In this document: positions 1 through 19,097 of the stretch, in pieces
Position numbering within the stretch: the stretch's first letter is position 1
How the letters are laid out: each line of letters begins with the position of its first letter
Assembly (NCBI RefSeq): GCF_036010505.1
Contig: NZ_CP108569.1
Span: forward strand, 6,712,001-6,776,000
Length of the DNA: 64,000 nucleotides
From: Streptomyces sp. NBC_01197
GTDB taxonomy: Bacteria; Actinomycetota; Actinomycetes; Streptomycetales; Streptomycetaceae
Direction of reading: 5' to 3'
Notes under the pieces: generated by a model
What the model saw: only the letters and a program-made list of their open reading frames with translations
What the model was told of the DNA's origin: nothing
Databases searched by the model: none
Position numbers and translations under genes: made by a program

Positions 1-821
1 TTCTCCAGCTCGCGCGGGTGGCTGAAGTGCGCCATCACGGCGAGCTGCCGCCCGGACGCCACCACGGACTCGAAAAGCCGCAGTACGTCGTCGGCGTCCG
101 GGTCGGTGACGTACCGCTGCGGCCAGTAGGCGACGGACTTGGTCCCGATCCGGACCGTACGGACGGACTCGACGCCGAGCAGCGGTCCGATGTGGCCGCG
201 CAGCCGGTCGGTCGACATCACCATTGGGTCGCCGCCCGTGACCAGGACGTCGTGCACCTCGGGATGGCCGCCCAGGTACTCGATCAGACCCGACGGGTCG
301 GGGGCCGCGAAGCGCAGATCGGCGTCGCCGATGAACTGCGCCCAGCGGAAGCAGTACGTGCAGTACGCGTGACAGGTCTGTCCCTGGCCGGGGAAGTAGA
401 GCACCGTCTCGCGGTACTTGTGCTGGAGGCCGGGCAGCTGGACGCCCTCCTCGCTCGGCACGTTGAGCTGCTGCTGGCCGGACGGATGCGGGTTGAGCCG
501 CTCGCGGATCTCGCGTACGGCCTCGCGGAGCAGGAGCTTGTCCGACGGGTCGCCGGAGAGCTTGGCGAGCTGCTCCTCGTCGGAGCGCGCCAGCATGCCG
601 CTCTGCGGGAACGTCAGCTGGAACATGGGGTCTTCGGGGGCCCGGTCCCAGTCGATGAGGTGCGACAGCACATATTCGTTGACCCGGAACGGCAGCACGA
701 GCGACACCCTGCGCACGGTCTCCGTGATGTCTTCGGGCAGCCCGAACCGCTGGGCGATGTCGTCGATATGGCGTGGCCCGAACGCCCGGAACCTGTCGGG
801 ATCCCTCCGGTCGGCCGGCAT
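1..821 (-). CDS. KamA-family radical SAM protein, 3' end missing (runs off the window)
   Basis: The first 273 residues are visible and the C-terminus lies beyond the left edge. A radical SAM cluster motif C-x3-C-x2-C sits at Cys150/Cys154/Cys157, inside CHAYCTYCFRW, followed by an SAM-binding type GGDP motif at about 197-199. The layout is that of lysine 2,3-aminomutase-like (KamA/COG1509) proteins, which use SAM, a 4Fe-4S cluster and usually PLP to move an amino group between carbons 2 and 3 of an amino acid. The PLP lysine would lie in the missing part, so the substrate and even the aminomutase activity are inferred. The ATG shares one base with the stop of the upstream carbamoyltransferase (TGATG), so the two are translationally coupled. 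Confidence 0.8.
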   Translation of the reverse strand, partial: MPADRRDPDRFRAFGPRHIDDIAQRFGLPEDITETVRRVSLVLPFRVNEYVLSHLIDWDRAPEDPMFQLTFPQSGMLARSDEEQLAKLSGDPSDKLLLREAVREIRERLNPHPSGQQQLNVPSEEGVQLPGLQHKYRETVLYFPGQGQTCHAYCTYCFRWAQFIGDADLRFAAPDPSGLIEYLGGHPEVHDVLVTGGDPMVMSTDRLRGHIGPLLGVESVRTVRIGTKSVAYWPQRYVTDPDADDVLRLFESVVASGRQLAVMAHFSHPRELE

Positions 822-2500
822 CAGACCGGGCCTCCTGTCCGGTTCGGTTTGCGGTACAGCTCGTCGCCCAGCACCAGGAAGTCGAGGTCCATGGAGCGGA
901 ACGCCTTCACCGCGTCGGCCGCGGTGTTGACGACGGGCTCGCCCTTGTCGTTGAAGGAGGTGTTGAGCAGCACCGGGGGGACGCCGTTCCGCCGCAGGCC
1001 GTCCAGGGCCGCTCCCACCGCCGGGGCCTCGTCGCCGCGCAGCACCTGCGGGCGGGTGGTGCCGTCGACGTGCACGACACCGGGCGCGACACTGCGGCCC
1101 AGCCCGGTGGCTCTGGCAGCGCCGAGCATGTAGCGGCTCAGATGCTCCTGCTGCTCCCAGAGCAGGGCGCCGTAGTCGGGCCGGGTGACCCCCGCGAAGG
1201 GGCGCCACTGCTCACGGTTCTTGATGGAGTTCACCCGGGCGTGCACCGCCGCGGTGTCGGGTACGGCGATGATCGACCGGCGGCACAGCGCACGCGGCCC
1301 GACCTCGGCCCGGCCCTGGGCGACCGCGCCGACGTGGCCGTCGATGAGCAGTGCGGTCAGCTCGTCGATATCGAGATCGCTGCGGAGCAGACCCGAAGTG
1401 TCCGGTGTGCCGGGACCGTTGGTGTGGTCGTAGCCGTGGATGTCGGTGCCCAGATAGGGGCTGAGCACCCCGGTCCGCCGCTTCGGCGGCCGTACGGTCC
1501 AGGCGGCTCCGAGCGCGACGCCCGCGTCGTGCGGCACCGGCGGGACGTACAGCGGACCGGGGAGCGTGCCGTTGGTGCTGCAGTTCAGCGCCACGCCGCC
1601 GCTCATGCAGAGCTGTTCGACACCGGACGTCTTGCGGGTCAGCGCCGCGAGATGGCTGACGGTCTCCTCGATGAGCCGCTGCGCGGTGTAGGCGACGAGA
1701 ATCGCGTGGGGATCCTCGGTGAGCGCCTCTTCCGGGGCGCTCGGCGCGCCGGCGCCTGCGATCCGCGTGTAGCGGTCCCGCCACCGGGCGACGGTCGTCT
1801 CGTACTGCTCCTTGATCTCGTCGGCTGTGGCGTGTCCTGTGCTCTCCACCAGCGGCTCGACGGCCAGCCGGAAGTCGTCGGCCCCGATGTCGACCAGCGA
1901 TTCGACGTCGAGCCCCGCGGCGCGGCCGTACGCGGCGAGACCCATGGTCTTGCCCGCGTTGAGGAAGGAGAAGCCGAGCCAGGTGGACGCGGCGTCGTAG
2001 GCGTACCCCAGCGACGCGGTGCGCTGCCAGGTCCGCTCAAGGCGCGGTTCGGCGCCGTCCTCGTACGTCCAGATGGTGGAGGACTCGTTCTCGCCGTGCC
2101 CGTCGACGACCAGGACCCCGGCCTTGGGGAAGGGCGACGCGTAGAACGACGAGGCCGCGTGCGCCTGGTGATGGGGTACGCGCACGACCTCGGGGGTGCG
2201 TTCGCCGAAGTCCAGGCCGACGGCGTACTCCAGGAACTCCGCGTCGGTCGCGAACCGGCGCGGGTACAGCTGCTCGCTGTCCCAGCCGAGAGCGACCACA
2301 TCGATGTCGGCGGCGGAGATCCCGGCCTGCTCAAGGCAGAACCGGGCCGCGCCCAGTGGTTTGCGGTAGAGCGAGTGCCGGCGCCGGTTGCAGCGCTCCT
2401 CCTCGGAGAAGGCGACGATCTCGCCGTTCCCGTCGATGAGGCAGGCGGCGCTGTCGTGCCACCCGGCGGGAGGGGCGTTGACTCCAAGAATCCACGTCAT
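821..2500 (-). CDS. Carbamoyltransferase, CmcH/NodU family
   Basis: A 559-residue protein with the two-domain layout of O-/N-carbamoyltransferases (NodU, CmcH, TobZ). The N-terminal TsaD-like domain carries a metal-binding VPHHQAH motif (His110, His111, His114) and VVDGHGE near 131-137. The C-terminal YrdC-like domain contains EVGPRALCRRS. Family members transfer a carbamoyl group from carbamoyl phosphate, through carbamoyl-AMP, to a hydroxyl or amine of a small metabolite. The start is the ATG at 2500, preceded by AGGAG; a longer reading to 2593 would add residues with no homology-like character. It lies 29 bp after the double ATP-grasp gene and overlaps the radical SAM gene by 1 bp, so it probably tailors the peptide made by this locus. 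The acceptor is unknown. Confidence 0.92.
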   Translation of the reverse strand: MTWILGVNAPPAGWHDSAACLIDGNGEIVAFSEEERCNRRRHSLYRKPLGAARFCLEQAGISAADIDVVALGWDSEQLYPRRFATDAEFLEYAVGLDFGERTPEVVRVPHHQAHAASSFYASPFPKAGVLVVDGHGENESSTIWTYEDGAEPRLERTWQRTASLGYAYDAASTWLGFSFLNAGKTMGLAAYGRAAGLDVESLVDIGADDFRLAVEPLVESTGHATADEIKEQYETTVARWRDRYTRIAGAGAPSAPEEALTEDPHAILVAYTAQRLIEETVSHLAALTRKTSGVEQLCMSGGVALNCSTNGTLPGPLYVPPVPHDAGVALGAAWTVRPPKRRTGVLSPYLGTDIHGYDHTNGPGTPDTSGLLRSDLDIDELTALLIDGHVGAVAQGRAEVGPRALCRRSIIAVPDTAAVHARVNSIKNREQWRPFAGVTRPDYGALLWEQQEHLSRYMLGAARATGLGRSVAPGVVHVDGTTRPQVLRGDEAPAVGAALDGLRRNGVPPVLLNTSFNDKGEPVVNTAADAVKAFRSMDLDFLVLGDELYRKPNRTGGPV

Positions 2501-2529
2501 GCGCGTCTCTCCTCGTTGGCTGTGGTCAG

Positions 2530-4995
2530 TCACGGAAGTCGGGTGAGGGTGTGCCGCACGGCACGCTGGGCGCGGCCGAGCGCGTCCGCGCACTCGTCCG
2601 GGCTGTCGCCGACGGCGATCAGCGCGGCGATGCGGGGCACGATGCCGCGCGGGGGCAGCAGCAGTTCGCTGCCCGGGGCGACGAGCGGGATTGCTTCGAC
2701 GATGCCGGGTTCGGCAGCGGCGTCGGTCAGATCGAGGGAGTCCACGGTGGCGTCGTACTCGGGGTAGACGAAGCGGACCTCGGCGCAGCGGTCCCGGCTG
2801 GGGGTGAGGTCCGGGGTGCGGCCGAGCGCGATGTCCACGGCGGCCGTGACCGGGTCGACGCCGGTGGCGAGCGTGCCGAGCAGCGGTATGAAGTCGCCGC
2901 CGAGCCGGCCGTTCACCTCCACGACGCGCGGCCCGGTGCGGGTGAGACGCAGCTCGGTGTGGGTCAGGCCGGTGCGGACACCGAGGACCGTGTGGGCCCG
3001 CGCCACGACGGACCGCATCTCGTCGGCCCAGGGCTCGTCGCGCCAGGGGACGACCCGGTGGCCGGTCTCCTCGAAGTACGGGGCGAATCCGAGCTGCTTG
3101 CGCGCGACGTTGACGACGCGGACCACCCCGTCGGAAACCGCGCAGTCCACGCTGATCTCCGGGCCCTCCAGATACTCCTCGACGATCGCGCCGTCCAGGG
3201 CGCTGATGCCGGGGAACGAGGAGGTGCGTGCCTGCTCGAAGGCGCGGGCGAGCCGGGCTGGGCCGTCCACGAGGCTGACGCCGATGCTGCCGGCCAGCCC
3301 GCGCGGTTTGACCACGACCGGCCAGCCGAGCGCGTCGGCGGCCTCCAGCGCCTCCGCATGGCTGTGCACATGGCGGTACGCGGCCGACGGGACCCCGGCC
3401 GCGCCGAGCAGCCGCCTGGTGGCCAGCTTGTCGCGGCAGCGGCGGGCCGCCTCGGGGCTCATATGCGGCAGCCGCAGCAGCCTGGCGACCTCGGCGGTGG
3501 TTTCCAGCAGGGTCTCGTCCCAGGTCAGTACGGCGCCGGGGCCGTCATGGCCGTCAAGCAGCTCCGCCACGGCCCGCGCGGTGGCCGGGGCGTCGGAGGT
3601 GTCGGCGGCCCGGAACCGGCCGTCCACGTACGGGCGTTGCCAGTCGATGGCGGTTCTCTGCACGAGTGCGGTGCTGACCCGTGCGGCGACGGCGCTCAGC
3701 GCGTACTTGCGGTAGGGCGGATTGCCGCAGCCCACGACGGCGAGCAGGCCGGGCCGCCGGACGTCGACGGGGGCGCACTCCAGCGAGGCGTCCCGGATCG
3801 TGCGGCGGACGGCCTCCGTGACCCCGGCGCTGTCGCGCCCGTGGAACCGGAACCGGATGCCGGCGTTCTCGTACCCACCCTCGCTCAGCAACGCCCCCTT
3901 GTGCGGCCGTACTTCGGTGTACGGGCCGCGGGCCGCGCCGGGGGCCCGGTGTCCGGTCGCCGAGAGGACCCGGCAGGGCATCGGCACCGAGGGCGGCACC
4001 AGCAGCCAGCCCGCCACTTCGGCTGGTCCTTCGAAGGCCGGGGCGGTCCCGTCCCCGATGCCGGTCTGCTGTGCGACGGCCACCGCCATCAGGTCGATAC
4101 CGTGCACCTCACGCCAGATGAAGGGCACTTCGGCGCCGCCCGGTCTGGCGCCGATCTCCAGGACCGTCAGTGCGCCGCTCGCGCTCTCGAAGAGCTCCAG
4201 ATGGAAGACCGCGGGCCTGGCGAAGAGCGCACCGGCCGTCGCCGCGGTGATCTCTCCTATCCGGCCGAGGAGTTCGGGGTCGTCGATCTCGACCGACCCG
4301 AGCGCGGTGCCGGCGGTGAACTCCAGGCAGGTGCTCAGATAGCGGGAGGCCCGCCAGGCGCCGAGTCCGCCGCCCCCTGCGTCTCCTGCGTCTCCTGAGT
4401 ACACGCCGTCGACATGCAGCACCTCGTCGGGTAGCCACGGTTGAACGAGCATCTCGGTGTCGCGAGGGGAGGCGTACGCCCGGAGCGCCTCGGCGGAGTC
4501 GAGCCGCCGGATTCCGGCGCTGGCCGTGCCCCGCCGCGGTTTGACCAGTACCGGCCAGCCGTGCCGGGCGGCGAAGGACTCGACCGCGGCGTGGTCCGGC
4601 GCGGCGGCCGTCGCGGGCACGGGTACGTCCGCGGCCGTGAGCCGCTGGGCCATCAGCAGCTTGTCCCGCAGGGGTTCGAGGTCCTCGCTGCGCTGTCCGG
4701 GCAGGCCGAACTCGCCGCGCAGATCGGCGGCCAGATCGAGATCGGTCTCCTGGAGCGCCACGATGCGGGTCGGCGGACCGGTCTGCCCGGCCAGCGAGCC
4801 GACCGCGTCGCGGACCTGTTTGACGTTCTCCGTGCTGTCCACGAGCCGTACGCCCGCGGCCTGTTCGTACGGCAGATGACGGGCGGCCCGTTCGGTGGTG
4901 ACGTAGCTGACGCGGTGGACGGCGTGGTCCAGATACGCGGCGTAGTCGGCGTACCGGTCGGTCCAGCGGTGGATGACCATCACGTGTTCGGGCAC
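2530..4995 (-). CDS. Tandem double ATP-grasp ligase
   Basis: An 821-residue protein with two consecutive ATP-grasp modules. The first (about 1-400) shows VLVKPRRGTASAGI in the ATP-binding lobe and FHLELFES...LEIGARPGG as the Mg-binding end. The second (about 430-820) shows VVVKPRGLAGSIGVS and HTELRL...VEVNGRLGGD. ATP-grasp enzymes make acyl phosphates and couple carboxylates to amines, as in dipeptide ligases of the BacD/DdaF type. Two active-looking modules in one chain could add two residues or act on two substrates. The start is GTG at 4995, chosen because AGGAGG lies 7 bases upstream; the reading frame extends further 5' but has no family resemblance. It sits between the condensation gene and the carbamoyltransferase in one leftward operon. 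Confidence 0.88.
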   Translation of the reverse strand: MPEHVMVIHRWTDRYADYAAYLDHAVHRVSYVTTERAARHLPYEQAAGVRLVDSTENVKQVRDAVGSLAGQTGPPTRIVALQETDLDLAADLRGEFGLPGQRSEDLEPLRDKLLMAQRLTAADVPVPATAAAPDHAAVESFAARHGWPVLVKPRRGTASAGIRRLDSAEALRAYASPRDTEMLVQPWLPDEVLHVDGVYSGDAGDAGGGGLGAWRASRYLSTCLEFTAGTALGSVEIDDPELLGRIGEITAATAGALFARPAVFHLELFESASGALTVLEIGARPGGAEVPFIWREVHGIDLMAVAVAQQTGIGDGTAPAFEGPAEVAGWLLVPPSVPMPCRVLSATGHRAPGAARGPYTEVRPHKGALLSEGGYENAGIRFRFHGRDSAGVTEAVRRTIRDASLECAPVDVRRPGLLAVVGCGNPPYRKYALSAVAARVSTALVQRTAIDWQRPYVDGRFRAADTSDAPATARAVAELLDGHDGPGAVLTWDETLLETTAEVARLLRLPHMSPEAARRCRDKLATRRLLGAAGVPSAAYRHVHSHAEALEAADALGWPVVVKPRGLAGSIGVSLVDGPARLARAFEQARTSSFPGISALDGAIVEEYLEGPEISVDCAVSDGVVRVVNVARKQLGFAPYFEETGHRVVPWRDEPWADEMRSVVARAHTVLGVRTGLTHTELRLTRTGPRVVEVNGRLGGDFIPLLGTLATGVDPVTAAVDIALGRTPDLTPSRDRCAEVRFVYPEYDATVDSLDLTDAAAEPGIVEAIPLVAPGSELLLPPRGIVPRIAALIAVGDSPDECADALGRAQRAVRHTLTRLP

Positions 4996-5014
4996 TGAGA
5001 TGCCTCCTGGGGCA

Positions 5015-5046
5015 GGAACGAGCACGGGCGGGAACGAGCACGGGCG
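5015..5046. repeat. Two tandem 16-bp copies of GGAACGAGCACGGGCG
   Basis: Perfect head-to-tail duplication in the 223-bp gap between the condensation gene and the double ATP-grasp gene, just upstream of the latter's ribosome site. The rest of the gap is GC-rich low-complexity sequence with no gene seen. The repeat may be simple slippage or may affect the leader; no function can be assigned. Confidence 0.85.
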
Positions 5047-5218
5047 GGCGGGAAGGCGGTACGGAGGCGGGGGCAGTGCGGGCGCGTGGTGTACGGGCGC
5101 TTGGTGCACGGGCGGGGGTGCGGGGCCCGGTGGCGCCCGCACCGTGGCCCGGGCGGGCGGCGTGCCGGGTGCGCCGGACGTGTCGCTCCGGACGGTGGCT
5201 CGGCTGTCCGTCGTCCGG

Positions 5219-6475
5219 TCAGCACTCTCCGGCGGTGGACAGGAGCGCGTGGTGCATGTCCCACAGCAGTTCGGCGCACCGCTCGCGGCCGACACCCTTG
5301 GCGGTGAGCCGCACGGACAGGCCGGACGCGCTCTCCTCGGCGCGGGCGTAACAGCGCGGGCCGATCGAGGTGAAGGGCTCCTCCCAGGTGATGGCGGGCT
5401 CGGTGAGGGGTGCCGGTTCCCCTGAATCGGGAGCCTGCTGCTCCGGCAGGGCCACGTAGTTGAAGGCGCAGACGGGTTCGGGCGCGCCTGGTCTGCGAGC
5501 GAGCAGCGCGGCGACGGCGGTCACGTCGTGCGCACCGTGGCGGAAGGCGCCGAGGCTGCTCCAGTGCGTGCCGGACGCCAGCCTGCGCAGGTCGTCCTCG
5601 CGGGCACCCTCGATCAGGGCGGGCACCCACTGGTTCATGGAGGTGACCAGGTTCTGCCAGCGGGCGGAGAAGCGGTTGGCGCTCATCAGCTGCACCAGCA
5701 GGGCGTCCGTGCCGCAGATCCTGGCCACGCTGCGGGCGTACGCCGCGAGGACGACACTGGAGACGGAGACCTCCGCCGCCGCCGCGACCTTACGGGCGGC
5801 GGCGCGGGCGGGGCCGGAGCGCAGGGTGGCCTGGACAACGCCCGCACCGGCGCCGGTCGCGGCCGGCAGGGCGATGGGCGGCGCCTGGTCGAGGAGCTGG
5901 TTCCAGTGGCCGAGTGCGGCGGCCTGCCGGCGCAGGCCCGTGGGGGTGAACTGGTCGGCGGCCAGTTCGGCGGGGCCGGGTGCGGTGGCGGGTCCGGCAC
6001 CGGACGGGTCGGTGAGCGCCCCGGTGAACTCCTGGCGCAGGACCTCCTGGGCCCAGGCGTCAGCGGCGATGTGGTGTTTGACGAACAGCAGGTGCGAGGC
6101 GGTCCCCGCGCGGTTCAACAGAGTGGCCCGCCAGCCGTGTTCATGGCCGAGGCGGAAGCGCAGGGAGGCGTGACCCTCGACGAAGTCGCCGGGTGGAGCG
6201 CCACCGGTCTCGACGACCGGCAGCGCGTCGGAGAAGTCGGTGTCGGGCTCCAACTGGATTGGTGAGTCGGGGTCCTGGAGGCCGTAGCGCGTCCTCAGCG
6301 ACGGATGCCGGGCGACGACGGACCGTAAAGCCGTGCGTACCTCCTCCGCGCCGACGCCAGGGGGGAGTGCCCAGAGCGCGGCGTTGTTCGCCTCGTGCCA
6401 CCGGGTGCTCGGCAGATCCCGGATGTCGTGCCAGACCGAGAGCTGGCCCAGCGAAAGCGGTCCCGCCACAGACAT
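5219..6475 (-). CDS. Free-standing NRPS condensation-domain protein
   Basis: A 418-residue protein with the chloramphenicol-acetyltransferase-like fold of NRPS condensation domains. It begins with the LSLGQLSVW (C1-like) motif and has the catalytic HHxxxD motif as HHIAADAW at His134-His135-Asp139; the last position is Trp where Gly is usual. Condensation domains normally form an amide between two carrier-bound acyl groups, or between one carrier-bound group and a free amine. No carrier or adenylation domain is fused, so the protein must work in trans. The start is ATG at 6475 behind GGAGGGG. It is the first gene of the leftward operon, divergent from the adenylation gene at 6962, which suggests that the two are co-regulated partners. 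Confidence 0.87.
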   Translation of the reverse strand: MSVAGPLSLGQLSVWHDIRDLPSTRWHEANNAALWALPPGVGAEEVRTALRSVVARHPSLRTRYGLQDPDSPIQLEPDTDFSDALPVVETGGAPPGDFVEGHASLRFRLGHEHGWRATLLNRAGTASHLLFVKHHIAADAWAQEVLRQEFTGALTDPSGAGPATAPGPAELAADQFTPTGLRRQAAALGHWNQLLDQAPPIALPAATGAGAGVVQATLRSGPARAAARKVAAAAEVSVSSVVLAAYARSVARICGTDALLVQLMSANRFSARWQNLVTSMNQWVPALIEGAREDDLRRLASGTHWSSLGAFRHGAHDVTAVAALLARRPGAPEPVCAFNYVALPEQQAPDSGEPAPLTEPAITWEEPFTSIGPRCYARAEESASGLSVRLTAKGVGRERCAELLWDMHHALLSTAGEC

Positions 6476-6961
6476 ATGCACCCCCTCCATCGATGAACAT
6501 CTTGAATTCCGCATCGTGGAATCTGCCTTCCATGCGGCGCTGACGCTGCCACACACTGTTGAGGCCTGTCCAGATCGAATGCCCTTCCGCCGCCCCTTCG
6601 TTCGCCGTTCGCCACCCGGCAACGCTGCGCAATGGCAAGGGATTTGGGGCTTTACGAAATTTGACCGTTCCCTGTGCTCCCGCGCGTGGCGCGCCCTCGG
6701 TAGTGGCCGAAAAGTGGTCCACATCACATGCCATCCCCGGCATCCGCGTGAGAGTCTGAACTCACCTTCGGAAGTTATTTTCCGCTATGCGAAATGCTCG
6801 GAAGTCGGAGACGTGAAGAGCGCGGGTGGCATCGCCGGCCGGGTCCCGCGTGCCGCAGCTCAGGCACCTGGCGCCGGGCACCCGGCCGCCTGCCGGAGAG
6901 GCGGGAGCGCCGGGCCACTCCCGGACCATCGTGCCCGCACCAGACGAGGGGTCTCATCAAC
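6476..6961. promoter_or_regulatory. Divergent intergenic regulatory region of the biosynthetic locus
   Basis: This 486-bp gap separates the leftward condensation operon from the rightward adenylation operon. Its middle (about 6590-6800) is clearly more AT-rich than the flanking genes, as expected for back-to-back promoters. A 9-bp palindrome CTTCGGAAG lies at 6766-6774, and TCGGAAGT occurs at 6768-6775 and again near 6799. No convincing -35/-10 pair or gene could be assigned by eye, and no regulator gene is present in the locus. Confidence 0.55.
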
Positions 6962-8698
6962 GTGACGCAACAGCCGTACCTCCGGGCCGGTTCCGCCGGG
7001 GAGTTCCTGCACGACTTCCTGCTCGGCGCAGTGGGGGCCACCCCGGACCGCCCGGCTGTCATCGAGTCCGCCCGGGCCGGACAGACCACCGTGACGACCT
7101 ACGGCGAGCTCGGCTCCCTGGTGCACATCTACACAGCGGCGCTGGAGGAACTCGGCGTCGAGACCGGCGCCCGGGTGATCCTGGAGTCCGAGACGACCGC
7201 GCTGTCCATCGCGATGTTCCTCGCCTGCTCACGGGCCGGGCTCACCTTCATTCCGGTGAGCCCCGAAATGCCGGGCGGGCGGCTGCTGTCCATCATCGGG
7301 TCCGCCCGCCCCGCCCTCCATCTGCAGGCGGCGGACGGCGAACGCGCGGACATCCCCCACGAGGTCGGCGCGGCCAGGTTCGGGCCGGGAGGGCTGGCCG
7401 TGGAGCGGGCGCCGGACTGGCGCACCCCCCGGCGGCGCACCCTCTGTGTCACCGACCCCGCCTACATCATCTTCACGTCCGGCACCACGGGGCGGCCCAA
7501 GGGCGTCGTGATGAGCCACCGGGCCGTGGTCGCCTTCTACCGGGGCATGCTGGCCCACCGCCTCGCCACCCCCGACGACCGGATCGCCAGTACCTCGCCC
7601 CTCCAGTTCGACTTCTCGCTGCTCAACATCGGCCTGGCGCTGGGCAGCGGCGCATCCGTCGTCCCCGTCCCGCCGCCACTCGTGCGCTGGCCGAGGCACT
7701 TCCTGCGGGTGCTCCGCGAGACCGGGGCGACCCAGGTCAACGGCGTACCGTCGATCTGGCGCCAGGCGCTGCGGTACGAACCCGAGCGGCTGGCCTCGCT
7801 CCAGGGGCTGCGCCGTGTCCTCTTCTGCGGCGAGGTGTTCCCGCCGGCCGAGCTGCGCCGGCTCCAGGAACTCCTGCCACGAGCGGAGTTCACCAACTGC
7901 TACGGCAGCACCGAGTCGATGGCCTGCTCGTTCGAGCCGGTGCCCCGCCCGCTCCCCGAGACGGCGGACCAACTCTCCATCGGCGTCGCCCATCCCGGCG
8001 CGGAGCTGCTTCTCGTCGACGGCGCGGGCGAGATCGTCGAGGAGCCCGGGGTGCTGGGCGAACTCCATCTGCGCAGCCCCGCGCTGTTCACGGGGTACTG
8101 GGACGACCCGGCGGCCACCCGGGCGGCGCTGGTGCCCGATCCGCTCTCCCCGCAGTCGGGCCGGCTGGTCCTGCGCACCGGCGATCTGGGCGTACGGGGC
8201 AAGGACGGCGAGTTCTACTTCTGTGGCCGGACCGACTCCCAGGTGCAGATCAACGGCAACAGGGTCGAACTGGGCGAGGTCGAACAGCAGTTGCAGGCGC
8301 ACCCCGGGGTCACGACGGCCGCCGTGCTGGCGCTGCCGGGGCCGGACGGCGGACAGCGGCTGACGGCGTTCACCGTGCCGGCCACGGGCCGGGCCACCGC
8401 TGACGGGCCCCACGGAGAGGGGACCCCGGTGGACGCGGGCGTACTGCGGGACTTCTGCGCGCGGACGCTGCCCCCGTATATGGTCCCGCAGGAGTTCCAG
8501 CTGGTGGACACGCTGCCCACGACGGCGAACGGCAAGGTCGACCGCGCGGCGCTGGCAGCGGGAGCCCGCTCCGTACGGGATCCAGCTGCCGGTTCCGTAC
8601 CGGACTCACCGGATTCGGCCGGAGCGCCGGATTCACCGGGAGCGCCGCCCGGGGTTCCTGCCGGGGCCCCGGCGGTGCTGCGCGGGTGCGGTCGCTGA
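6962..8698 (+). CDS. Free-standing NRPS-type adenylation enzyme
   Basis: A 578-residue ANL-superfamily enzyme that activates an amino acid as its aminoacyl-AMP. Motifs appear in order: FTSGTTGRPKG (A3, residues 171-181), a FDFS motif whose Asp is the residue that usually holds the alpha-amino group of amino-acid substrates, NCYGSTES (A5), RTGDL (A7), and PTTANGKVDR with the catalytic Lys (A10) near 530. After A10 comes only a Pro/Ala/Ser-rich tail of about 45 residues with no carrier domain. GTG at 6962 is preferred because GAGGGG lies 10 bases upstream; upstream codons resemble non-coding sequence. It heads a rightward operon with the MFS and ATP-grasp genes. The substrate is not readable by eye with confidence. 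Confidence 0.9.
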   Translation: MTQQPYLRAGSAGEFLHDFLLGAVGATPDRPAVIESARAGQTTVTTYGELGSLVHIYTAALEELGVETGARVILESETTALSIAMFLACSRAGLTFIPVSPEMPGGRLLSIIGSARPALHLQAADGERADIPHEVGAARFGPGGLAVERAPDWRTPRRRTLCVTDPAYIIFTSGTTGRPKGVVMSHRAVVAFYRGMLAHRLATPDDRIASTSPLQFDFSLLNIGLALGSGASVVPVPPPLVRWPRHFLRVLRETGATQVNGVPSIWRQALRYEPERLASLQGLRRVLFCGEVFPPAELRRLQELLPRAEFTNCYGSTESMACSFEPVPRPLPETADQLSIGVAHPGAELLLVDGAGEIVEEPGVLGELHLRSPALFTGYWDDPAATRAALVPDPLSPQSGRLVLRTGDLGVRGKDGEFYFCGRTDSQVQINGNRVELGEVEQQLQAHPGVTTAAVLALPGPDGGQRLTAFTVPATGRATADGPHGEGTPVDAGVLRDFCARTLPPYMVPQEFQLVDTLPTTANGKVDRAALAAGARSVRDPAAGSVPDSPDSAGAPDSPGAPPGVPAGAPAVLRGCGR

Positions 8699-8750
8699 GT
8701 CCGTCCGGTTCGCCACGACCCGGCGCCGACCCGACCCGCAGGAGAGAGCC

Positions 8751-9986
8751 TTGAGCAGAACCGACATGCCCGCCCCGCACCCCACCGAGCCAGCGGAGAG
8801 CCGGCTGCGCACCTTCGTACGGGTCCGCGCGGGCGGACTGCCCGGGGCCTTCTGGGTGCTGTGGGGCGGGACGCTGGTCAACCGGCTCGGCTCCATGGTC
8901 AATCCGTTCCTCAGCCTCTATCTGACCGGGATACGGGGAGTCCCGATCGGCACCACCGGGCTCATCCTCGCCGCGGTCGGGGTGGGATCGGTCATCTCGC
9001 AGCCGCTCGGCGGGTTCATCGCCGACCGCTTCGGCCGCCGGGTGGCCCTGAGCGGCGGCATGCTGGCGAACGGCGCGACCCTCCTGACGCTCGGGCACGC
9101 CCACAGCCTCGGCGTGCTCGTCCCGGCCTGCTTCGTACTCGGCATCACCATCGACTTCTTCCGGCCCGCCGCCCAGGCGCTCGTCGCGGACACCGTCCCC
9201 GCCGCCGACCGGACCCGTGCCTTCGGCCTGCTGCTGTGGTCGGTCAATCTCGGGTTCTCGATGGCGATGGTGCTGGGCGGCTACCTCGCGTCCCACGGCT
9301 ACCAGTTGATCTTCTGGCTGGACGCCGGAGCCTGCTCGGTCTTCGCCGTACTGGTGTGGCTTGCCGTCCCCGAGACCCAGCCGCCGGCCGGGGAGCACAG
9401 TGCGGGCGGCTTCCTCACCCCGGTGCGCGACCGCGCGATGCTGGCCTTCGCCGGCATCATCGTGGTCTACGCGACCGTCTTCCAGCAGGCTTTCGCGACG
9501 CTGCCGCTGGTGATGCGGGGCGAGGGCCTGTCCAGTACCGCGTACGGAACGGTCATGGCGGTCAACGGGCTGGTGGTCATCGCCGCGCAGCCGCTGATCG
9601 GCCACCGGCTCGGGGCCTTCGACAAGAGCCGGGTACTCGCCACCGGCTTCGGCGTCGCCGCCGCCGGCACGACCGTGATGGTGTTCGCCTCCACGACCCT
9701 CATGTACGGGCTCGCCGTCGCGGTGTGGACGCTGGGGGAGATCCTGGTCTTCGCGATGACCTCCTCCGTCGTCGCCGACCTGGCGCCGGCCCGTCTCCGC
9801 GGGCGCTACAACGGGTTGATCGGGATGGCCTGGGGCACGGGCTTCCTGCTGGCGCCGGTCGCCGGCACCCGGCTGCTGCTCGTCGGTTCCACGACGCTCT
9901 GGCTGACGGCCGCTTGTCTGTGCCTCGTCGCGGCAGCGGGCCAGCTCTCGCTCGCGCCGGTCCTGCGCCGCAGAACCGCGCACTGA
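8751..9986 (+). CDS. MFS transporter, probable product exporter
   Basis: A 411-residue major facilitator protein with about 12 hydrophobic helices. The cytoplasmic loop motif between helices 2 and 3 reads GGFIADRFGRRVAL, the classical MFS motif A. The start is a TTG with AGGAGAG placed 6 bases upstream; an in-frame ATG five codons later is the alternative but has a worse ribosome site. It lies 52 bp after the adenylation gene and 47 bp before the ATP-grasp gene, so it is best read as the exporter of this locus's product. The transported compound is inferred from context only. Confidence 0.88.
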   Translation: MSRTDMPAPHPTEPAESRLRTFVRVRAGGLPGAFWVLWGGTLVNRLGSMVNPFLSLYLTGIRGVPIGTTGLILAAVGVGSVISQPLGGFIADRFGRRVALSGGMLANGATLLTLGHAHSLGVLVPACFVLGITIDFFRPAAQALVADTVPAADRTRAFGLLLWSVNLGFSMAMVLGGYLASHGYQLIFWLDAGACSVFAVLVWLAVPETQPPAGEHSAGGFLTPVRDRAMLAFAGIIVVYATVFQQAFATLPLVMRGEGLSSTAYGTVMAVNGLVVIAAQPLIGHRLGAFDKSRVLATGFGVAAAGTTVMVFASTTLMYGLAVAVWTLGEILVFAMTSSVVADLAPARLRGRYNGLIGMAWGTGFLLAPVAGTRLLLVGSTTLWLTAACLCLVAAAGQLSLAPVLRRRTAH

Positions 9987-10033
9987 GCACGTACCTCACC
10001 GAACTCACCGAACTCCTTGAAGGGGCCCCCACC

Positions 10034-11275
10034 GTGCAGAAGGTGCTGCTGATAGAGGCCGACGTATCCGCGGGCGAGGACATACTGACCGCGGCGGCGG
10101 GGCTCGGCCTTGAGGCCCATGTGGCCACCCACGAGGACGTGTTCCGTTCCTACCGGCCCGAGTTGAAAGCGAAGCTCAGCGGCACCGTCTTCACCGACTT
10201 CTCCGATCCACGGACCGCTCTCGACGACCTCGCCCGCTTCTGCCGGGAGACGGGTATCGACGGGATCGTGGCCTGCTGGGAGTTCCTCTCGCCGCTGGCC
10301 ACCCGCCTCGCGGACCGGCTGGGGCTCCCCGGCCACCGCCCCGAACTCGCCGACGCCTGCCGCAACAAGTGGCTCATGGCCGAGGCGTTCGCCGCCCACG
10401 GGGTCCCGGCCCCGCGCACCGTGGTGGCCCAGGACCCGGCGGAGCTGGCCCGGCGCGTGGCGGAGAGCGGCCTGGGCTTCCCCCTCGTCGTCAAGCCGGC
10501 GGAGAACGCGGCATCCATCGGCGTCTCGGTCGTGCGCTCGGCCGCCGAACTCCCCGAAGCCGCCCGGCTGGCCCAGTCGCAGACCCACAAGACTTCGCAC
10601 GGTCTGGCCCTCGACATCACTCTGCTGGCCCAGGAGCACGTGGACGGCGACGAGTTCAGCGTCGAGACCGTCATCTCCCACGGCGAGATCCACCACTTGA
10701 CGATCACCGAGAAACTCACCACCGGAGGAACCAGTCGCGCCGAACTCGGCCACACCGTGCCCGCGGAGAGCGCGCCCGGCGTCGGCGAGGCGCTGTACGC
10801 GGCGGCCACCGCCGCGATCAGGGCGCTGGGGCTGCGCAACGGCGTCGCACACACCGAGGTGAAGATCGGCAGCGGAGGAGCCCCCAAGGTCATCGAGGTG
10901 GGCGCGCGGCCACCCGGCGACCACATCATGAGGCTGGTCAGGGAAGCGCTCGGCATCGACGAGGCACGCGCCTTCCTGCAGACGGTGCTCGGCCGGCGGC
11001 CGGACGTCGAACCCCGGCGCGAGGCGGCCGCCGCCATCCGGTTCATCACCGCACCGGAGGCCGGAGTCCTCCGGTGGACCAGCGCGCCCCCCTGCGGGGA
11101 CCACGTGATCGCGACGGCCATCTCGAAGATGCCGGGGGACGAAGTGGGCGGCCCGTACGACAACATGGGCCGCATCGGACAGATCATGCTCCGTGGAGCC
11201 ACCGCGGCGGAGGTCAACAAGGTGGCGGCCGAGGCCATGGACGCGATCACGGTGGAGATGGTGAGGCAGTGGTGA
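10034..11275 (+). CDS. ATP-grasp ligase, single module
   Basis: A 413-residue protein of the ATP-grasp family (BacD/carbamoyl-phosphate-synthase-like). The N-terminal pre-ATP-grasp domain starts VQKVLLIEAD. The ATP-binding lobe shows PLVVKPAENAASIGVSVV, and the metal-binding end reads HTEVKI...VIEVGARPPGD, with the Glu and Arg expected for Mg-ATP and carboxylate chemistry. Such enzymes join amino acids through an acyl phosphate. With the two modules at 2530-4995 the locus encodes three ATP-grasp units. GTG at 10034, behind GAAGGGG, is taken as the start. It ends the rightward operon; a 119-bp gap follows before the kinase-like gene. Confidence 0.88.
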   Translation: MQKVLLIEADVSAGEDILTAAAGLGLEAHVATHEDVFRSYRPELKAKLSGTVFTDFSDPRTALDDLARFCRETGIDGIVACWEFLSPLATRLADRLGLPGHRPELADACRNKWLMAEAFAAHGVPAPRTVVAQDPAELARRVAESGLGFPLVVKPAENAASIGVSVVRSAAELPEAARLAQSQTHKTSHGLALDITLLAQEHVDGDEFSVETVISHGEIHHLTITEKLTTGGTSRAELGHTVPAESAPGVGEALYAAATAAIRALGLRNGVAHTEVKIGSGGAPKVIEVGARPPGDHIMRLVREALGIDEARAFLQTVLGRRPDVEPRREAAAAIRFITAPEAGVLRWTSAPPCGDHVIATAISKMPGDEVGGPYDNMGRIGQIMLRGATAAEVNKVAAEAMDAITVEMVRQW

Positions 11276-11394
11276 GGGCGTGGCGCCCGTAGACTGACCG
11301 GCCGGTCCCGGACGGGCGGGCTTGGACGCACCCGGGTGGATCTGCCCGCCGTACGGACCTGCCTCCGAGCGGAGAATTGAGGTCGGCAGTCCGG

Positions 11395-12471
11395 ATGGCT
11401 TCGACGATGGAGATCCCCGACCTGGAGCCCGGTGCACGTCAGGCCCGGTACAGCGCTGTTTCCACGTCCCTGGCCCTGCGCGGTGGCAGGCGACTGCGTG
11501 AACTCGTGGCCACCGCCGAACCTCTCGGCTCCGGTATCGGTGGGAGATCGGCGCTGCTCGATGTCGCCGGTACGCCGGTCTTCGTGAAGCGGGTACCCCT
11601 GACGGAGTGGGAGCTCCGTGCGGATCATGTCCGGTCCACCGCGAACCTGTTCGGCCTGCCCGTCTTCTGTCAGTACGGCATCGGCGGGCCGGGTTTCGGG
11701 GCCTGGCGGGAGCTCGCTGCTCACACCATGACCACGAACTGGGTGCTCGCAGGGCAGTACCGGGGCTTCCCGCTGATGTATCACTGGCGCGTGCTGCCGG
11801 ACACGGCACCGGCTCTTCCGGACGAGCTCGCCGACGTGGAGCGGGCGGTGGCCTACTGGGGCGGCGGCCCGGAGATACGCGCTCGTATACAGGCCCTTGA
11901 GCAGTCCCCGGCGAGCATGGTGCTGTTCCTGGAGTACATACCTCAGACGCTGCGCACGTGGCTCACCGAGCAGGTACGGGCCGGTGACGAGAGCGCCGAC
12001 CGGGCCTGTTCCCTGGTGGAGAGGGAACTGGTGGCCGGCACATCCTTCATGAACGACCGCGGACTCGTGCACTTCGACGCCCACTTCGAGAACATCCTGA
12101 CGGACGGCCGAAGCCTCTACTTCGCGGACTACGGCCTGGCTCTCTCGTCCCGGTTCGACCTGTCGCGCCACGAGGCCGACTTCTTCGCGAGACACAGCAC
12201 GTACGACCGCGCCTACACACTCAGTTACCTGGTGAACTGGCTGATCAGTGGCGTGTACGGGTACGAGCGGACAGAGCGGGAGGCGCTGATACGCGCGTGC
12301 GCCGAAGGGGAACGTCCCCCGGCCGGCCCGTCGGGGGCCGCAGCGGTCCTCACCCGCCACGCGCCGCTCGCGGCGGTCGTGACGGACTTCTACGGAAGGC
12401 TGGCGGACGAGAGCCGGGAGACTCCGTACCCACTGGAGGCGATCCGCCGGATCCTTGATTCGCGGGGCTGA
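11395..12471 (+). CDS. Kinase-like (protein-kinase/APH fold) protein
   Basis: A 358-residue protein with the diagnostic catalytic-loop pattern of the protein kinase/aminoglycoside phosphotransferase fold: HFDAHFENIL (H-x-D-x4-N) followed about 15 residues later by FADYGLAL in the position of the DFG metal-binding motif. An N-terminal PVFVKRV matches the ATP-anchoring beta-strand Lys. Proteins like this phosphorylate small molecules or proteins. Next to a peptide locus and an ABC exporter it could be a self-resistance enzyme, but this is inference. ATG at 11395 is chosen with GAGG upstream; TTG 11377 and ATG 11407 are alternatives. Transcription is probably independent of the ATP-grasp gene. 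Confidence 0.72.
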   Translation: MASTMEIPDLEPGARQARYSAVSTSLALRGGRRLRELVATAEPLGSGIGGRSALLDVAGTPVFVKRVPLTEWELRADHVRSTANLFGLPVFCQYGIGGPGFGAWRELAAHTMTTNWVLAGQYRGFPLMYHWRVLPDTAPALPDELADVERAVAYWGGGPEIRARIQALEQSPASMVLFLEYIPQTLRTWLTEQVRAGDESADRACSLVERELVAGTSFMNDRGLVHFDAHFENILTDGRSLYFADYGLALSSRFDLSRHEADFFARHSTYDRAYTLSYLVNWLISGVYGYERTEREALIRACAEGERPPAGPSGAAAVLTRHAPLAAVVTDFYGRLADESRETPYPLEAIRRILDSRG

Positions 12472-12594
12472 GGGCCGTGCTTCAACCGGCAGTTCGAGGC
12501 AGCTGGACAGAACAACCCGAGTGCACTGTGCTCGCTGAGCTGGCAAGGTAGCCGCTCGCCAGTCGATTCGATACCGATCCATGAGTGAGGCAAT

Positions 12595-14304
12595 GTGCGG
12601 CCCTTCGCCGACACGGATCACGGGAAGCCCGACTTACGCGGCCCGTGGCGTTACCTGCTGTGGATGGCGGCCCGACGCCGGCGCCTCCTCCTTCTCGACG
12701 GTGTCTTCAACGTGCTGTGGTCGGGCGGACTGGCGCTGACTCCGGCAGTGATCGGCCAGGCCATCAACACCGGTCTGGTGGCGAAGGACGAGACGGCACT
12801 GGTCCGCTGGGGTCTGGCGGTCATCGCACTGGGCATCGCCACGGCGCTGTCCGCTCTGCTCGTGGAGCGCCTCGAACTGAGGGTCAAGGTCGAGCCCGGG
12901 TACGAGACGATGCGGCTCGTCACCCGCAAGGCCTGTGAACTCGGCACGACGGTCGACCGGAAGTCCTCGGCCGGCGACCTCGTCACGGCCGGCGTCTCGG
13001 ACATCAGCCTCATCGGCCAGACCCTGGAGGTGGGTGCCCGCGGCGTGGGCGGAGCCGTCGCGTTCGTCGTCGTCGCCACACTCATGCTCGTCGCCTCCTG
13101 GCAGGTCGGCCTGCTGGTGCTGATCGCGGTGCCGGCCATCCTCTTCGTCACCACCCGCCTGGCCCGCACCCTGCGCAGCAGACAGAACCGGCTCCGCACA
13201 CAGCAGTGCGAACTCACCGACCAGGCCGTCGACATCGTGCGAGGACTGCGAGTCCTGCGCGGGATCGGCGGCGAGGAACTGTTCAGCGGCCGGTACCGGG
13301 ACGCGTCGCAGCGCCTCCGGTCCGTCGCGCTGCGACAGGCGCGGGCCTCGGCGTTCCTGGGGGCGGCCAGAACGTTCCTGCCCAGCCTGCTGCTCGCCGG
13401 AGTGGTGGCCCTGGCCGGGGAGTTGGTGCTGACGGAGCAGCTGAGCACCGGGCAGATGGTGGCCTTCTACGGGTACGCCACATACCTGGTGATGCCCATC
13501 AACCGGATCACCTTCGCCGTCTCCAAGGCCATGCAGGGCCATGTGGCCGCCGCGAACGTCATCCGGCTGCTCCGGACGGAGCCCGAGGTCGGGCCCGGCC
13601 CCGAATCGGGCGCGGTGCCCGGCACCGGCGTCCTGGCCGACCCCGACTCCGGCCTGCGGGTGCCCGCCGGTGGCCTCACCGCCGTCGTGTGCTCCGCGGA
13701 CGACTCGGCCGTGCTGGCCGACCGGTTGGGGCGCTACGTCGAGTCCGGTGCGACGTACGCCGGACAGCCGCTGGCCGGCCTTCCGCTGGCCGGGGTGCGC
13801 GAGCGGATCCTCGTCACCACCACGGACGAGCACTTGTTCGCGGGCGCGCTGCGCCGCGAGCTGAATCCGGCCGGCTCCGGCTCCGACCCCTCCGACGACC
13901 AGCTGTGGGCGGCCGTCGACGCGGCCGCCGCCCGGGACGTCGTCGAGGCGCTGCCCGAGGGTCTTGACTCCCAAGTATCGGCCGGCGGGCGGGAGTTCTC
14001 CGGCGGCCAGCAGCAGCGCCTGCGGCTGGCCCGCGCGTTGATGGCCGATCCGGAAGTACTGGTCCTGGTCGACCCGACCAGCGCTGTCGACGCGAACACG
14101 GAGAGCAGGATGGCCGAGGGGATCGAGTGCCTGCGCCGGGGCCGGGCCACCGTGGTGTTCACGACGAGCGTCCTGCTGCTGCACCGGGCCGATCACGTGG
14201 CGCTGGTCCTCGACGGCACGGTGGCGGCCGAGGGATCCCACGATTCCCTGATGGCGGACGCGCGCTACCGGTCCCTGGTCGAGCGCTGGACGGCCGCCGT
14301 ATGA
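12595..14304 (+). CDS. ABC exporter half-transporter with degenerate ATP site (subunit 1)
   Basis: A 569-residue fusion of a six-helix exporter membrane domain (about 20-320) and a nucleotide-binding domain. The signature FSGGQQQR (from Phe468) is intact. The place of the Walker A loop holds LTAVVCSADDSA with no GKS/T, the Walker B region ends VLVLVDPTSAVD so the catalytic Glu is Pro, and the H-switch His is absent (VVFTTSVLLL). The subunit therefore cannot hydrolyse ATP at its own Walker site but can donate a signature motif to a partner. GTG at 12595 has GTGAGG 4 bases upstream. Its stop overlaps the partner's start (ATGA), indicating obligate co-expression as a heterodimer. Confidence 0.9.
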   Translation: MRPFADTDHGKPDLRGPWRYLLWMAARRRRLLLLDGVFNVLWSGGLALTPAVIGQAINTGLVAKDETALVRWGLAVIALGIATALSALLVERLELRVKVEPGYETMRLVTRKACELGTTVDRKSSAGDLVTAGVSDISLIGQTLEVGARGVGGAVAFVVVATLMLVASWQVGLLVLIAVPAILFVTTRLARTLRSRQNRLRTQQCELTDQAVDIVRGLRVLRGIGGEELFSGRYRDASQRLRSVALRQARASAFLGAARTFLPSLLLAGVVALAGELVLTEQLSTGQMVAFYGYATYLVMPINRITFAVSKAMQGHVAAANVIRLLRTEPEVGPGPESGAVPGTGVLADPDSGLRVPAGGLTAVVCSADDSAVLADRLGRYVESGATYAGQPLAGLPLAGVRERILVTTTDEHLFAGALRRELNPAGSGSDPSDDQLWAAVDAAAARDVVEALPEGLDSQVSAGGREFSGGQQQRLRLARALMADPEVLVLVDPTSAVDANTESRMAEGIECLRRGRATVVFTTSVLLLHRADHVALVLDGTVAAEGSHDSLMADARYRSLVERWTAAV

Positions 14305-16245: not shown

Positions 16246-17228
16246 CTACGGCCGCTTGCCCGCCGTGCCTGTCGACGTCAGGATGCGGTGGATCAGACGG
16301 GCGCCCGCCCGTGCCGTGCGGCGGTCGATGTCGAGGCCCGGGCTCAGTTCGGCGACATCGACCAGCAGGGGAGCCCCCGCGGCCGCCACTCGTGCGCAGA
16401 CGTGCTCGATGATCTCCATCTGTACGCCGTAGGCGGCCGGGGCGCTGACCCCGGGAGCCGTGCCGGCGGGCAGCACATCGAGGTCGATGCTCAGGTGGAC
16501 GATGTCGCAGCTCGCCAGGAACGCGTCCACGAACCCGTCGATGCGCGGCAGGTCGAACATGCGGCAGCGGGTGTCCGGCAGATACCGCACGCCGAGCTGG
16601 TCCGCGGTGCGGAACAGCCGCTCGGTGTTGCTCGGCTGGCTCACGCCCAGCACCCAGTAGTTGAGCTTTTCGCCGCGCTGCTGCTCGCCATGTGCCATTT
16701 GCAGGAACGGTGTGCCGGAGCTGGGCTGTATGTCGTCGCGCAGGTCGAAGTGGGCGTCGAGGTTGAGAACCCCGAGGCGGCCGCCCTCGTGCACCGCGCG
16801 CGTCCCGGCCAGCCCGAGGTAACTGCCGTAGGCCACCTCATGGCCGCCGCCGAGCACCACCACCGGATGGCCCCGGTCGATGAGCGGGGTGATCACCTGG
16901 CCCAGGCGGTGCTGCCCCTCTTCGAGGTGGCCGTCGGCCACCTCGATGTCGCCGAGGTCCACCGCCCGTACCGGCCTCGGAAGCGCCATGGGCGCGAGAG
17001 CGGCGCGCAGTTCACGCGGTCCGTCGGCCGCGCCCTGGCGGCCCTTGTTCCGGCGGACGCCCTCGTCGCTGCGGAAGCCGACGAAGGCCACGTCGCCCGG
17101 CTCCGCGTGGCCGGCGCCGAGGCCGACCACATGGTGCCAGCGCAGGTTGTCGGTCCCGGGTCCGTCGTCACGGCCCGTCCAGGGTTCGGGGGCCACGTCC
17201 GTCATCGACAGCGGTGTGGGGGTCGTCG

Positions 17229-17232
<4 letters not shown>
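16246..17232 (-). CDS. hutG: Formimidoylglutamase (histidine utilisation)
   Basis: A 328-residue ureohydrolase of the arginase/agmatinase superfamily. The binuclear manganese ligand motifs are [18 protein letters not shown] and [10 protein letters not shown]. Given its place directly behind hutU, it most likely hydrolyses N-formimidoyl-glutamate to glutamate and formamide, the last step of the direct pathway. The ATG at 17232 overlaps the hutU stop (ATGA), so the pair is translationally coupled as hutU-hutG. Agmatinase or guanidinobutyrase is the alternative by family, but the context favours HutG. Confidence 0.93.
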
Positions 17233-18911
<1,679 letters not shown>

Positions 18912-19019
18912 GGTGCCTCCTGGGGAAGGGTCTGGGGGTGGGAAGCCGGTGGTGACGTACCGGCGTGTTCTCCCATGACAGGCGGCGGGCGGGGCGGGGA
19001 CCAGCCCTGCCGCCCCGGT

Positions 19020-19058
19020 TTCTCGGATCCGAGAACGGGAACCCGGCTCACCTATAAT
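19020..19058. promoter_or_regulatory. hutU/hutC divergent operator and hutC -10 box
   Basis: A perfect 16-bp palindrome, TTCTCGGATCCGAGAA, at 19020-19035 is followed by a consensus -10 hexamer TATAAT at 19053-19058. The -35 region of that promoter would overlap the right arm of the palindrome, so a bound protein should block it. The GGATCC core resembles the palindromes before hutH and hutI. The binding protein (HutC or one of the IclR proteins) is not known. Confidence 0.7.
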
Positions 19059-19097
19059 TTCCGCGGCGGGGCATACGGGGGCGGACTGGTGACAGGG

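Follow-up and report, generated by a model that had tools for sequence, protein, structure and literature searches.

Gene content and conservation of the cluster

A cluster of 15 genes, about 20 kb long, occupies the left end of the window analysed here, the 64,000 nucleotides at positions 6,712,001 to 6,776,000 of contig NZ_CP108569.1 (G000:C1:6712001-6776000) in the 7.7 Mb, two-contig genome of Streptomyces sp. NBC_01197. It extends from about -8712 to 11275, negative coordinates lying to the left of the window, where 20 kb were also read and where eight cluster genes and part of kamA are located. From right to left, the minus strand encodes a free-standing condensation (C) protein, a double ATP-grasp ligase, a carbamoyltransferase, a KamA-family radical SAM protein, a pyridoxal phosphate (PLP) enzyme, an MDMPI/DinB protein, an AzicU9-type fusion protein, a free acyl carrier protein (ACP), two proteins with an acyl-CoA dehydrogenase (ACAD) fold, a phosphopantetheinyl transferase (PPTase) and an adenylation (A) protein, A2. 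The plus strand encodes a further A protein, A1, an MFS exporter and a third ATP-grasp protein. The C, A1, A2 and ACP proteins are separate, and not C-A-T units on one chain as in a modular nonribosomal peptide synthetase (NRPS). No polyketide synthase (PKS) or VinK-type acyltransferase was seen among the proteins scanned between about -14.2 kb and 19.8 kb, which represent part of the open reading frames (ORFs) there. We consider it likely that the cluster uses a macrolactam-type beta-amino-acid starter set without a PKS, and joins it to a peptide module of ATP-grasp and C proteins.

A preliminary description of the window had named seven proteins in two divergent, tightly spaced operons. All seven are present on the implied strands. 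The spacing is tight within each arm, whereas the arms themselves are separated by a divergent intergenic region of about 486 bp (6476..6961, bounded by the chosen start codons). The carrier protein it expected to the left of position 1 exists in two forms, the free ACP and a carrier domain of the fusion, within about 8.7 kb of additional cluster. The PPTase was recognised as a conserved gap gene, and the free ACP through a motif scan, which led us to reject the fusion as the sole carrier of the cluster.

The double ATP-grasp protein, searched against 394 genomes of the same family, gave 14 full-length matches, its own included. Five of the other genomes (G309, G007, G305, G300 and G315) are collinear from A2 to the MFS gene, and four of these five also carry the third ATP-grasp gene. 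The remaining eight have the C protein (30-42% identity) and the double ATP-grasp protein (54-58%) in common with the cluster, and otherwise weak matches of at most 38%. A pattern scan of named genomes found 72 loci, 15 of which belong to what we call class I, the loci of this cluster. Class I loci all come from Streptomyces, for example S. lydicus, S. albospinus, S. nigrescens, S. inhibens, S. galbus and S. seoulensis. With L092, a 4.9 kb contig holding three class I genes, omitted, 14 class I loci had enough flanking sequence. As some of the family genomes duplicate named loci (e.g. G309 and L084), the two counts are not additive.

The MFS exporter, A1, C, double ATP-grasp, carbamoyltransferase, KamA, PLP enzyme, fusion, both ACAD-fold proteins, PPTase and free ACP are present in all 14 class I loci, and the third ATP-grasp and the MDMPI protein in 12 each. 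A2, at the edge of the locus, was found, mostly as a partial gene, in 11 of the 14, and in all five collinear genomes. This conservation of gene order is far above chance. The two divergent arms occur together in 5/5 genomes and 14/14 named loci, so that their travelling together, a point on which the preliminary description could have failed, holds.

Predicted supply and loading of a beta-amino acid

Papers are cited by PMC number, each for those passages of it that were available. The KamA-family protein, of the IdnL4 type, is encoded on the minus strand by a gene (-561..821) that the window edge splits. Its CxxxCxxC motif is kept in all 73 family rows; in this motif scan, as in those of A1 and C, the rows count some genomes twice. 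The PLP-binding lysine aligns with that of proteins of the lysine 2,3-aminomutase (LAM) type from the same genus (L201-L203), which rules out a PLP-less enzyme with the lysine deleted. The lysine motif itself is found in 69 of the 73 rows, the other four having, by eye, a one-residue variant that keeps the lysine. A motif [VI][ED]RDTG surrounds an arginine in 73/73 rows. This arginine stands where LAM has Asp293 and, being basic, would suit an acidic side chain of the substrate. Against TIGR04368, the equivalog of glutamate 2,3-aminomutase, the protein scores 82.9 bits, with a cut-off of 650; because of such scores below the NCBIfam cut-offs, we describe it as working like, not as being, a glutamate 2,3-aminomutase.

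The neighbouring PLP enzyme (-1880..-558, minus strand) accompanies KamA also outside class I. Among 18 KamA neighbourhoods fetched of 32 listed matches, ten showed KamA adjoining the same PLP enzyme at 63-68% identity. One of these ten, L183, is a cluster of the macrolactam type that also encodes a modular PKS, an abhydrolase and a VinK-type transferase. In midpoint-rooted trees, which contain duplicate genomes, the class I sequences form one clade for the PLP enzyme (support 1.0) and for A1 (0.988). For KamA, support for the class I clade is weak (0.385); the clade falls within a larger group (0.997) that also contains L183 and nine further rows. Judged from similarity and neighbourhood, KamA and the PLP enzyme correspond to the two enzymes that supply macrolactam pathways with 3-aminobutyrate. 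In the published pretilactam set for 3-aminobutyrate, a PLP 'aminotransferase' of 419 aa adjoins an aminomutase of 450 aa, and two AMP ligases are present as well (PMC6631532). IdnL4 and IdnL3 are assigned in reviews to the route from Glu through beta-Glu to 3-aminobutyrate (PMC11284099, PMC9230918).

KamA relatives were also observed in other settings. In Nocardia jejuensis (L133, 10001-12400), one of 52% identity adjoins an ATP-grasp protein that shares 40% identity with the double protein's N-terminal half. In L196 and L199 (G009, G122), one of 53% identity is flanked by a carbamoyltransferase (32-33%) on one side and by several A domains on the other, in an NRPS-type setting.

A1 (6962..8698 within ORF 6794-8698, likely start 6962, plus strand) is predicted to be a beta-amino-acid:ACP ligase of the VinN/IdnL1/HitB type, and not the ordinary NRPS partner of the C protein. 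Its best matches among solved structures are the HitB entries (592-586 bits), 5jjq (IdnL1, 565.5 bits) and 5jjp (CmiS6, 560.7 bits), and the best ordinary NRPS A domain follows at 304 bits. According to PMC11253843, 7DQ5 and 6M01 are HitB (beta-Phe), 5JJQ is IdnL1 (3-aminobutanoate), 5JJP is CmiS6 and 6AKD is IdnL7; in these ligases an Asp for the amino group is followed by a bulky Phe, and a Leu at position 220 of IdnL1 goes with a small substrate. The corresponding motif in A1, FDFSLL, has both the Asp-Phe pair and the Leu and is kept in 20/20 class I rows, which predicts a substrate with a small beta-substituent, 3-aminobutyrate or near.

These matches bear on the 'minimal NRPS pair' of the preliminary description. 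An ordinary pair of C and A proteins, working with ATP-grasp ligases and with a KamA that makes beta-lysine or similar, would account for the C, A and ATP-grasp proteins that are present. We regard it as very improbable, given the roughly 290-bit preference of A1 for the beta-amino-acid:ACP ligases over any ordinary A domain and the place of KamA in the tree, in one group with that of L183, a PKS cluster, and relatives. In addition, outside class I the C protein accompanies the double ATP-grasp protein, with which we place it, while matches to A1 nearby reach at most 38%; a second A protein, A2, lies beyond the window.

A2 (-8712..-7144, minus strand) resembles VinM and IdnL7, its best matches being 8k4r (307 bits), which we take to be VinM, 6akd (IdnL7, 283 bits) and linear gramicidin synthase (281 bits). 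VinM and IdnL7 conserve C217, A285 and T318; a hand reading of A2 gave Pro at C217 and Thr at T318. VinM attaches L-Ala to a carrier-bound beta-amino acid (PMC11284099). The free ACP (-4133..-3870, minus strand, PF00550 42.4 bits) has a GVDSM site with a modifiable Ser, which identifies it as a carrier protein, and is 35-41% identical to the ACPs of L183 and L186. Together with an Sfp-type PPTase (within -7141..-6176, minus strand, PF01648 25.2 bits at a cut-off of 25), A2 and the ACP appear to complete a starter set of the macrolactam type.

Flavoproteins, fusion protein and probable peptide coupling

Of the two ACAD-fold proteins, both on the minus strand, the first (-5308..-4130) is 67% identical over 96% of its length to AlaD of L-alanosine biosynthesis; the second occupies -6434..-5301. 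In the protein searches for AlaD and AzicU9, only the candidates that shared most words were scored, and the best 120 were listed. AlaD-positive genomes numbered 38. Besides class I, G052, G098 and G130, 16 further AlaD-type neighbourhoods were fetched, the rest being mostly weaker matches. Twelve of the 16 combine the ACAD-fold pair with a PPTase and an AzicU9-type protein; the misses are L256 (a 4.7 kb contig), L246, L247 and L258.

One conceivable role for the pair is desaturation. The flavoproteins would turn carrier-bound 3-aminobutyrate, or an N-aminoacyl form of it, into an enamide or 3-aminocrotonyl unit, the AzicU9-type protein would be a plain amide-forming acyltransferase, and the product a dehydro-beta-amino-acid peptide. 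We regard this as possible but doubtful. The monooxygenases DszC/TdsC and the N-oxygenase KijD3 are among the best five Foldseek matches of the ACAD-like protein, the fold alone not being decisive, and AlaD, its close homologue, is proposed to act on the amine of carrier-bound diaminopropionate (Dap). AlaD also suggested a diazeniumdiolate product such as alanosine, which we rate low because no cupin or SznF-like enzyme is annotated among the class I proteins scanned.

The fusion protein (-3831..-2665, minus strand) combines an enzyme domain of the AziU3/CcbD fold with a carrier domain. Its homologue AzicU9, from Kibdelosporangium sp. MJ126-NF4, shares 50% identity with it over 94%. In fold it resembles AziU3 from Streptomyces sahachiroi and, to an equal degree, CcbD and CtaG (Z differences <1), with 10-16% identity in the aligned parts. 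The domain has a Cys-His-Asp arrangement as in enzymes of the CcbD/CtaG/BtrH type (the CtaG residues being taken from PDB titles). A BtrH_N Pfam match is weak and limited to 5 of 36 members, and the fold-search matches listed include no BtrH structure, which is uninformative.

This protein opens another route, in which the ACAD pair N-oxygenates ACP-bound 3-aminobutyrate at its beta-nitrogen and the AziU3-fold domain closes a three-membered ring, giving an azicemicin-like aziridine or an azirinomycin-like 2H-azirine. A 3-methylaziridine- or 3-methyl-2H-azirine-2-carboxyl unit would then be appended to a peptide by the C and ATP-grasp enzymes. Azicemicin is an aziridine angucycline, and AziU3 belongs to the azinomycin pathway, also an aziridine pathway. 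The source of both AzicU9 and AziU3 in such pathways, and the fact that azirinomycin is a C4 azirine acid (PMC8911782), make the proposal attractive. AziU3 is described as functionally an aziridine synthase (PMC12559475), enamino esters have been oxidised chemically to 2H-azirine-2-carboxylates (PMC7497194), and the recurrence of the ACAD pair with PPTase and AzicU9-type protein fits as well. On the other side, a Cys-His-Asp triad suits acyl transfer, and no azirinomycin cluster was found in the literature passages searched. The comparably good fold matches, CcbD and CtaG, are amide makers. Ring closure seems to us rather unlikely, somewhat more so than desaturation.

Slightly less probable still is a wider version, in which the AzicU9-ACAD-PPTase set is a general three-membered-ring builder. 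The AlaD-like flavoprotein would oxidise the beta-nitrogen of a beta-amino acid held on a carrier, and the AziU3-fold domain, fused to the carrier, would close C2 onto N, here, from Glu-derived 3-aminobutyrate, yielding a 3-methylaziridine- or 2H-azirine-2-carboxyl warhead with the skeleton of azirinomycin, mounted on the peptide by the C and double ATP-grasp proteins. The carbamoyltransferase perhaps activates the N-O bond as a leaving group in that case. If true, this would be a cassette-level route to such rings in many actinomycete clusters. In the reading that we prefer, the starter set used without a PKS, the ACAD pair and the fusion form a second cassette, which should oxidise and transfer the carrier-bound unit.

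Related cassettes were observed elsewhere. In L214/L185 (G098) and L215 (G052), an AzicU9-type fusion and an ACAD pair lie beside C-A-T NRPS proteins, together with a PALP-family PLP enzyme, a protein resembling aldehyde dehydrogenases and one more ACP; the 20 kb of G052 that were read contain an Orn/Arg-type decarboxylase and no KamA. L191 (G130, 2858-13223) and L254 (G121) carry a cassette A2-PPTase-ACADs-ACADl-fusion-KamA-PLP-A1, with no match to the C, ATP-grasp or carbamoyltransferase proteins nearby, a candidate for a very small product.

Peptide coupling would be the task of the proteins nearest to the divergent region. The C protein (5219..6475 within ORF 5219-6727, likely start 6475, minus strand, PF00668 58.9 bits) keeps its HHxxxD motif in 36/36 rows from class I and others. 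In the double ATP-grasp ligase (2530..4980 within ORF 2530-5295, likely start 4980, minus strand), the C-terminal half is canonical, with VE[VL]NGRLGGD in 14/14. The N-terminal half is divergent, reading LE[IV][GA][AG]RPGG in 14/14 (here LEIGARPGG) without the Asn of the E-x-N motif. The C and double ATP-grasp pair recurs in clusters otherwise unlike class I, as a separate coupling module reused elsewhere. Most likely, therefore, C couples what the double ATP-grasp protein makes with an acyl group bound to a carrier. The third ATP-grasp protein (9983..11275, start about 9983-10010, plus strand, PF13535 62.7, PF18603 46.8 and PF18130 46.1 bits) is of the L-amino-acid-ligase type. The arms further encode a NodU/CmcH-type carbamoyltransferase (821..2500 within ORF 821-2593, first Met about 2500, minus strand, PF02543 131.1 and PF16861 155.3 bits), the MFS exporter (8751..9986, plus strand, PF07690 193.7 bits) and the MDMPI/DinB protein (-2590..-1877, minus strand).

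Among the clusters with similar C and double ATP-grasp pairs (L096-L103), that of Microbispora oryzae (L098, 8511-18564) has MFS, short-chain dehydrogenase/reductase, AMP ligase and CmlS-like halogenase genes beside the pair, as well as a 100-aa protein that is ACP-like by eye and has no Pfam match. L098 represents another cluster family, distinct from class I, that is based on this coupling module. In a further set (L104-L115 and L122, e.g. S. eurocidicus L105 and S. albireticuli L106), the ATP-grasp genes are separate and show 46-52% identity to one half of the double protein; 10 of 13 also have a carbamoyltransferase of 32-34% identity. L106 also has an ATP-grasp protein 67% identical to the third one.

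Proposed pathway and relation to known systems

For the starter set joined to a peptide module, the following sequence of steps can be proposed. KamA would move the amino group of L-Glu to give beta-Glu, which the PLP enzyme would decarboxylate to (S)-3-aminobutyrate. After activation of the ACP and the carrier domain by the PPTase, A1 would load 3-aminobutyrate onto the ACP, and A2 would add a small alpha-amino acid to the carrier-bound amine, as VinM does. Oxidation by the two flavoproteins would follow, with the beta-nitrogen of the carrier-bound unit as the most likely site, in line with the proposal for AlaD/AlnG, and the fusion would either transfer the acyl group to an amine or close a ring. 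The double ATP-grasp protein would make a short peptide, the amine of which C would acylate with the carrier-bound unit, and the third ATP-grasp would add a residue in most members. Finally, the carbamoyltransferase would carbamoylate the product or an intermediate, and the MFS protein would export it. The probable product is a small, undescribed and possibly reactive molecule, a carbamoylated peptide derived from 3-aminobutyrate that may contain an aziridine or azirine. Gene content, conservation and family placement can be read from the sequences, every reaction and the product being inferred from them.

Several points weigh against this pathway. No metabolite is known for the cluster, and an early acylation of the beta-nitrogen by A2 is hard to reconcile with N-oxidation of the same nitrogen. 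KamA lies far under every NCBIfam aminomutase cut-off, and activity of IdnL4 was unseen in vitro (PMC11284099). The lead of the VinM and IdnL7 matches of A2 over linear gramicidin synthase is small, and because Pro replaces Cys217, its substrate may differ from that of IdnL7. The fold of the ACAD-like protein matches both dehydrogenases and monooxygenases and thus does not discriminate, and the role of AlaD is a published hypothesis. The N-terminal ATP-grasp half may be inactive or altered, since the Asn of the E-x-N motif is lacking. The C proteins outside class I share only 30-42% identity, and the third ATP-grasp and MDMPI genes are each absent from two of the 14 class I loci.

Only sub-cassettes of the cluster matched characterised systems, and no described cluster with this gene set was found in the open-access literature searched, most subscription papers lying outside that scope. 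Each sub-cassette has a known relative, and the combination probably represents a PKS-free use of the macrolactam starter set, joined to a peptide module of ATP-grasp and C proteins. The incednine and pretilactam starter sets (IdnL4, IdnL3, IdnL1 and IdnL7; plmF-K) likewise have KamA, a PLP enzyme, an IdnL1-type A protein, a second A protein and a free ACP. In contrast, class I has no PKS or VinK-type acyltransferase in view, and adds the fusion, the ACAD pair, C, ATP-grasp and carbamoyltransferase proteins. The azicemicin cluster, source of the fusion's homologue AzicU9, has two adenylating enzymes and an extra ACP. Its product, a type II polyketide, contains an aziridine derived from Asp; in the present cluster the beta-amino acid is expected to come from Glu, and a PKS was not seen. 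L-alanosine biosynthesis (AlaD/AlnG) shares the ACAD-fold protein. In two neighbourhoods with AlaD of 78-79% identity (L246, L247), however, neither a second ACAD nor a PPTase or AzicU9-type fusion was seen, and the class I proteins scanned include none annotated as a cupin N-N enzyme.

CcbD (celesticetin), CtaG (closthioamide) and BtrH (butirosin), all amide-forming enzymes, share the fold and the Cys-His-Asp arrangement of the fusion, but the domain in the cluster is fused to its own carrier. The L-amino-acid ligases BL00235, BacD and DdaF belong to the class that also includes the third ATP-grasp and the double protein's C-terminal half; the cluster differs in its tandem fusion with a divergent N-terminal half, beside a free C protein. 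Tuberactinomycin biosynthesis has like parts, with VioM (C), VioO (A), the aminomutase VioP, the carbamoyltransferase VioL and an ACAD-like enzyme, yet a modular NRPS builds the core there, while the cluster uses ATP-grasp ligases and a macrolactam-type A protein. Tuberactinomycin and streptothricin were both rejected as models, having like parts and a different logic. Kasichelin was rejected on the same grounds, its beta-aminoisobutyrate coming from thymine in the passages available.

As a whole, the interpretation in the preliminary description is partly supported. The analysis agrees with it on a locus that makes a small product from amino acids, and on the involvement of ATP-grasp ligation, a beta-amino acid and a carbamoyltransferase; it does not support the 'minimal NRPS pair'. 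The pair supplying 3-aminobutyrate, the ACAD pair and the AzicU9-type fusion had gone unseen. Beta-amino-acid starter enzymes, described as PKS feeders in the literature passages available, are here part of a conserved cluster in which no PKS was seen, and genome mining keyed to a nearby PKS would miss such clusters. An IdnL4-like aminomutase, an AlaD-type flavoprotein and an AzicU9-type fusion, all three poorly understood, are joined in one small cluster, the chemistry of which is testable with few soluble proteins. If a strained ring is indeed formed, it would offer an enzymatic route to reactive warheads.

Further left of the cluster, an old yellow enzyme gene and a peptidase gene were rejected as members, having no match in the class I relatives. 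To the right, an adjoining ORF (11377-12471) with weak protein-kinase similarity (23.2 bits, Pfam cut-off 31.7) has a match in L081 and L082, the two closest relatives, and in no other. It is followed by an ABC exporter gene pair (12595-16058) and by arginase-family and urocanase genes (16246-19820), for which the class I stretches compared held no match, save a 30% ABC match in L067.

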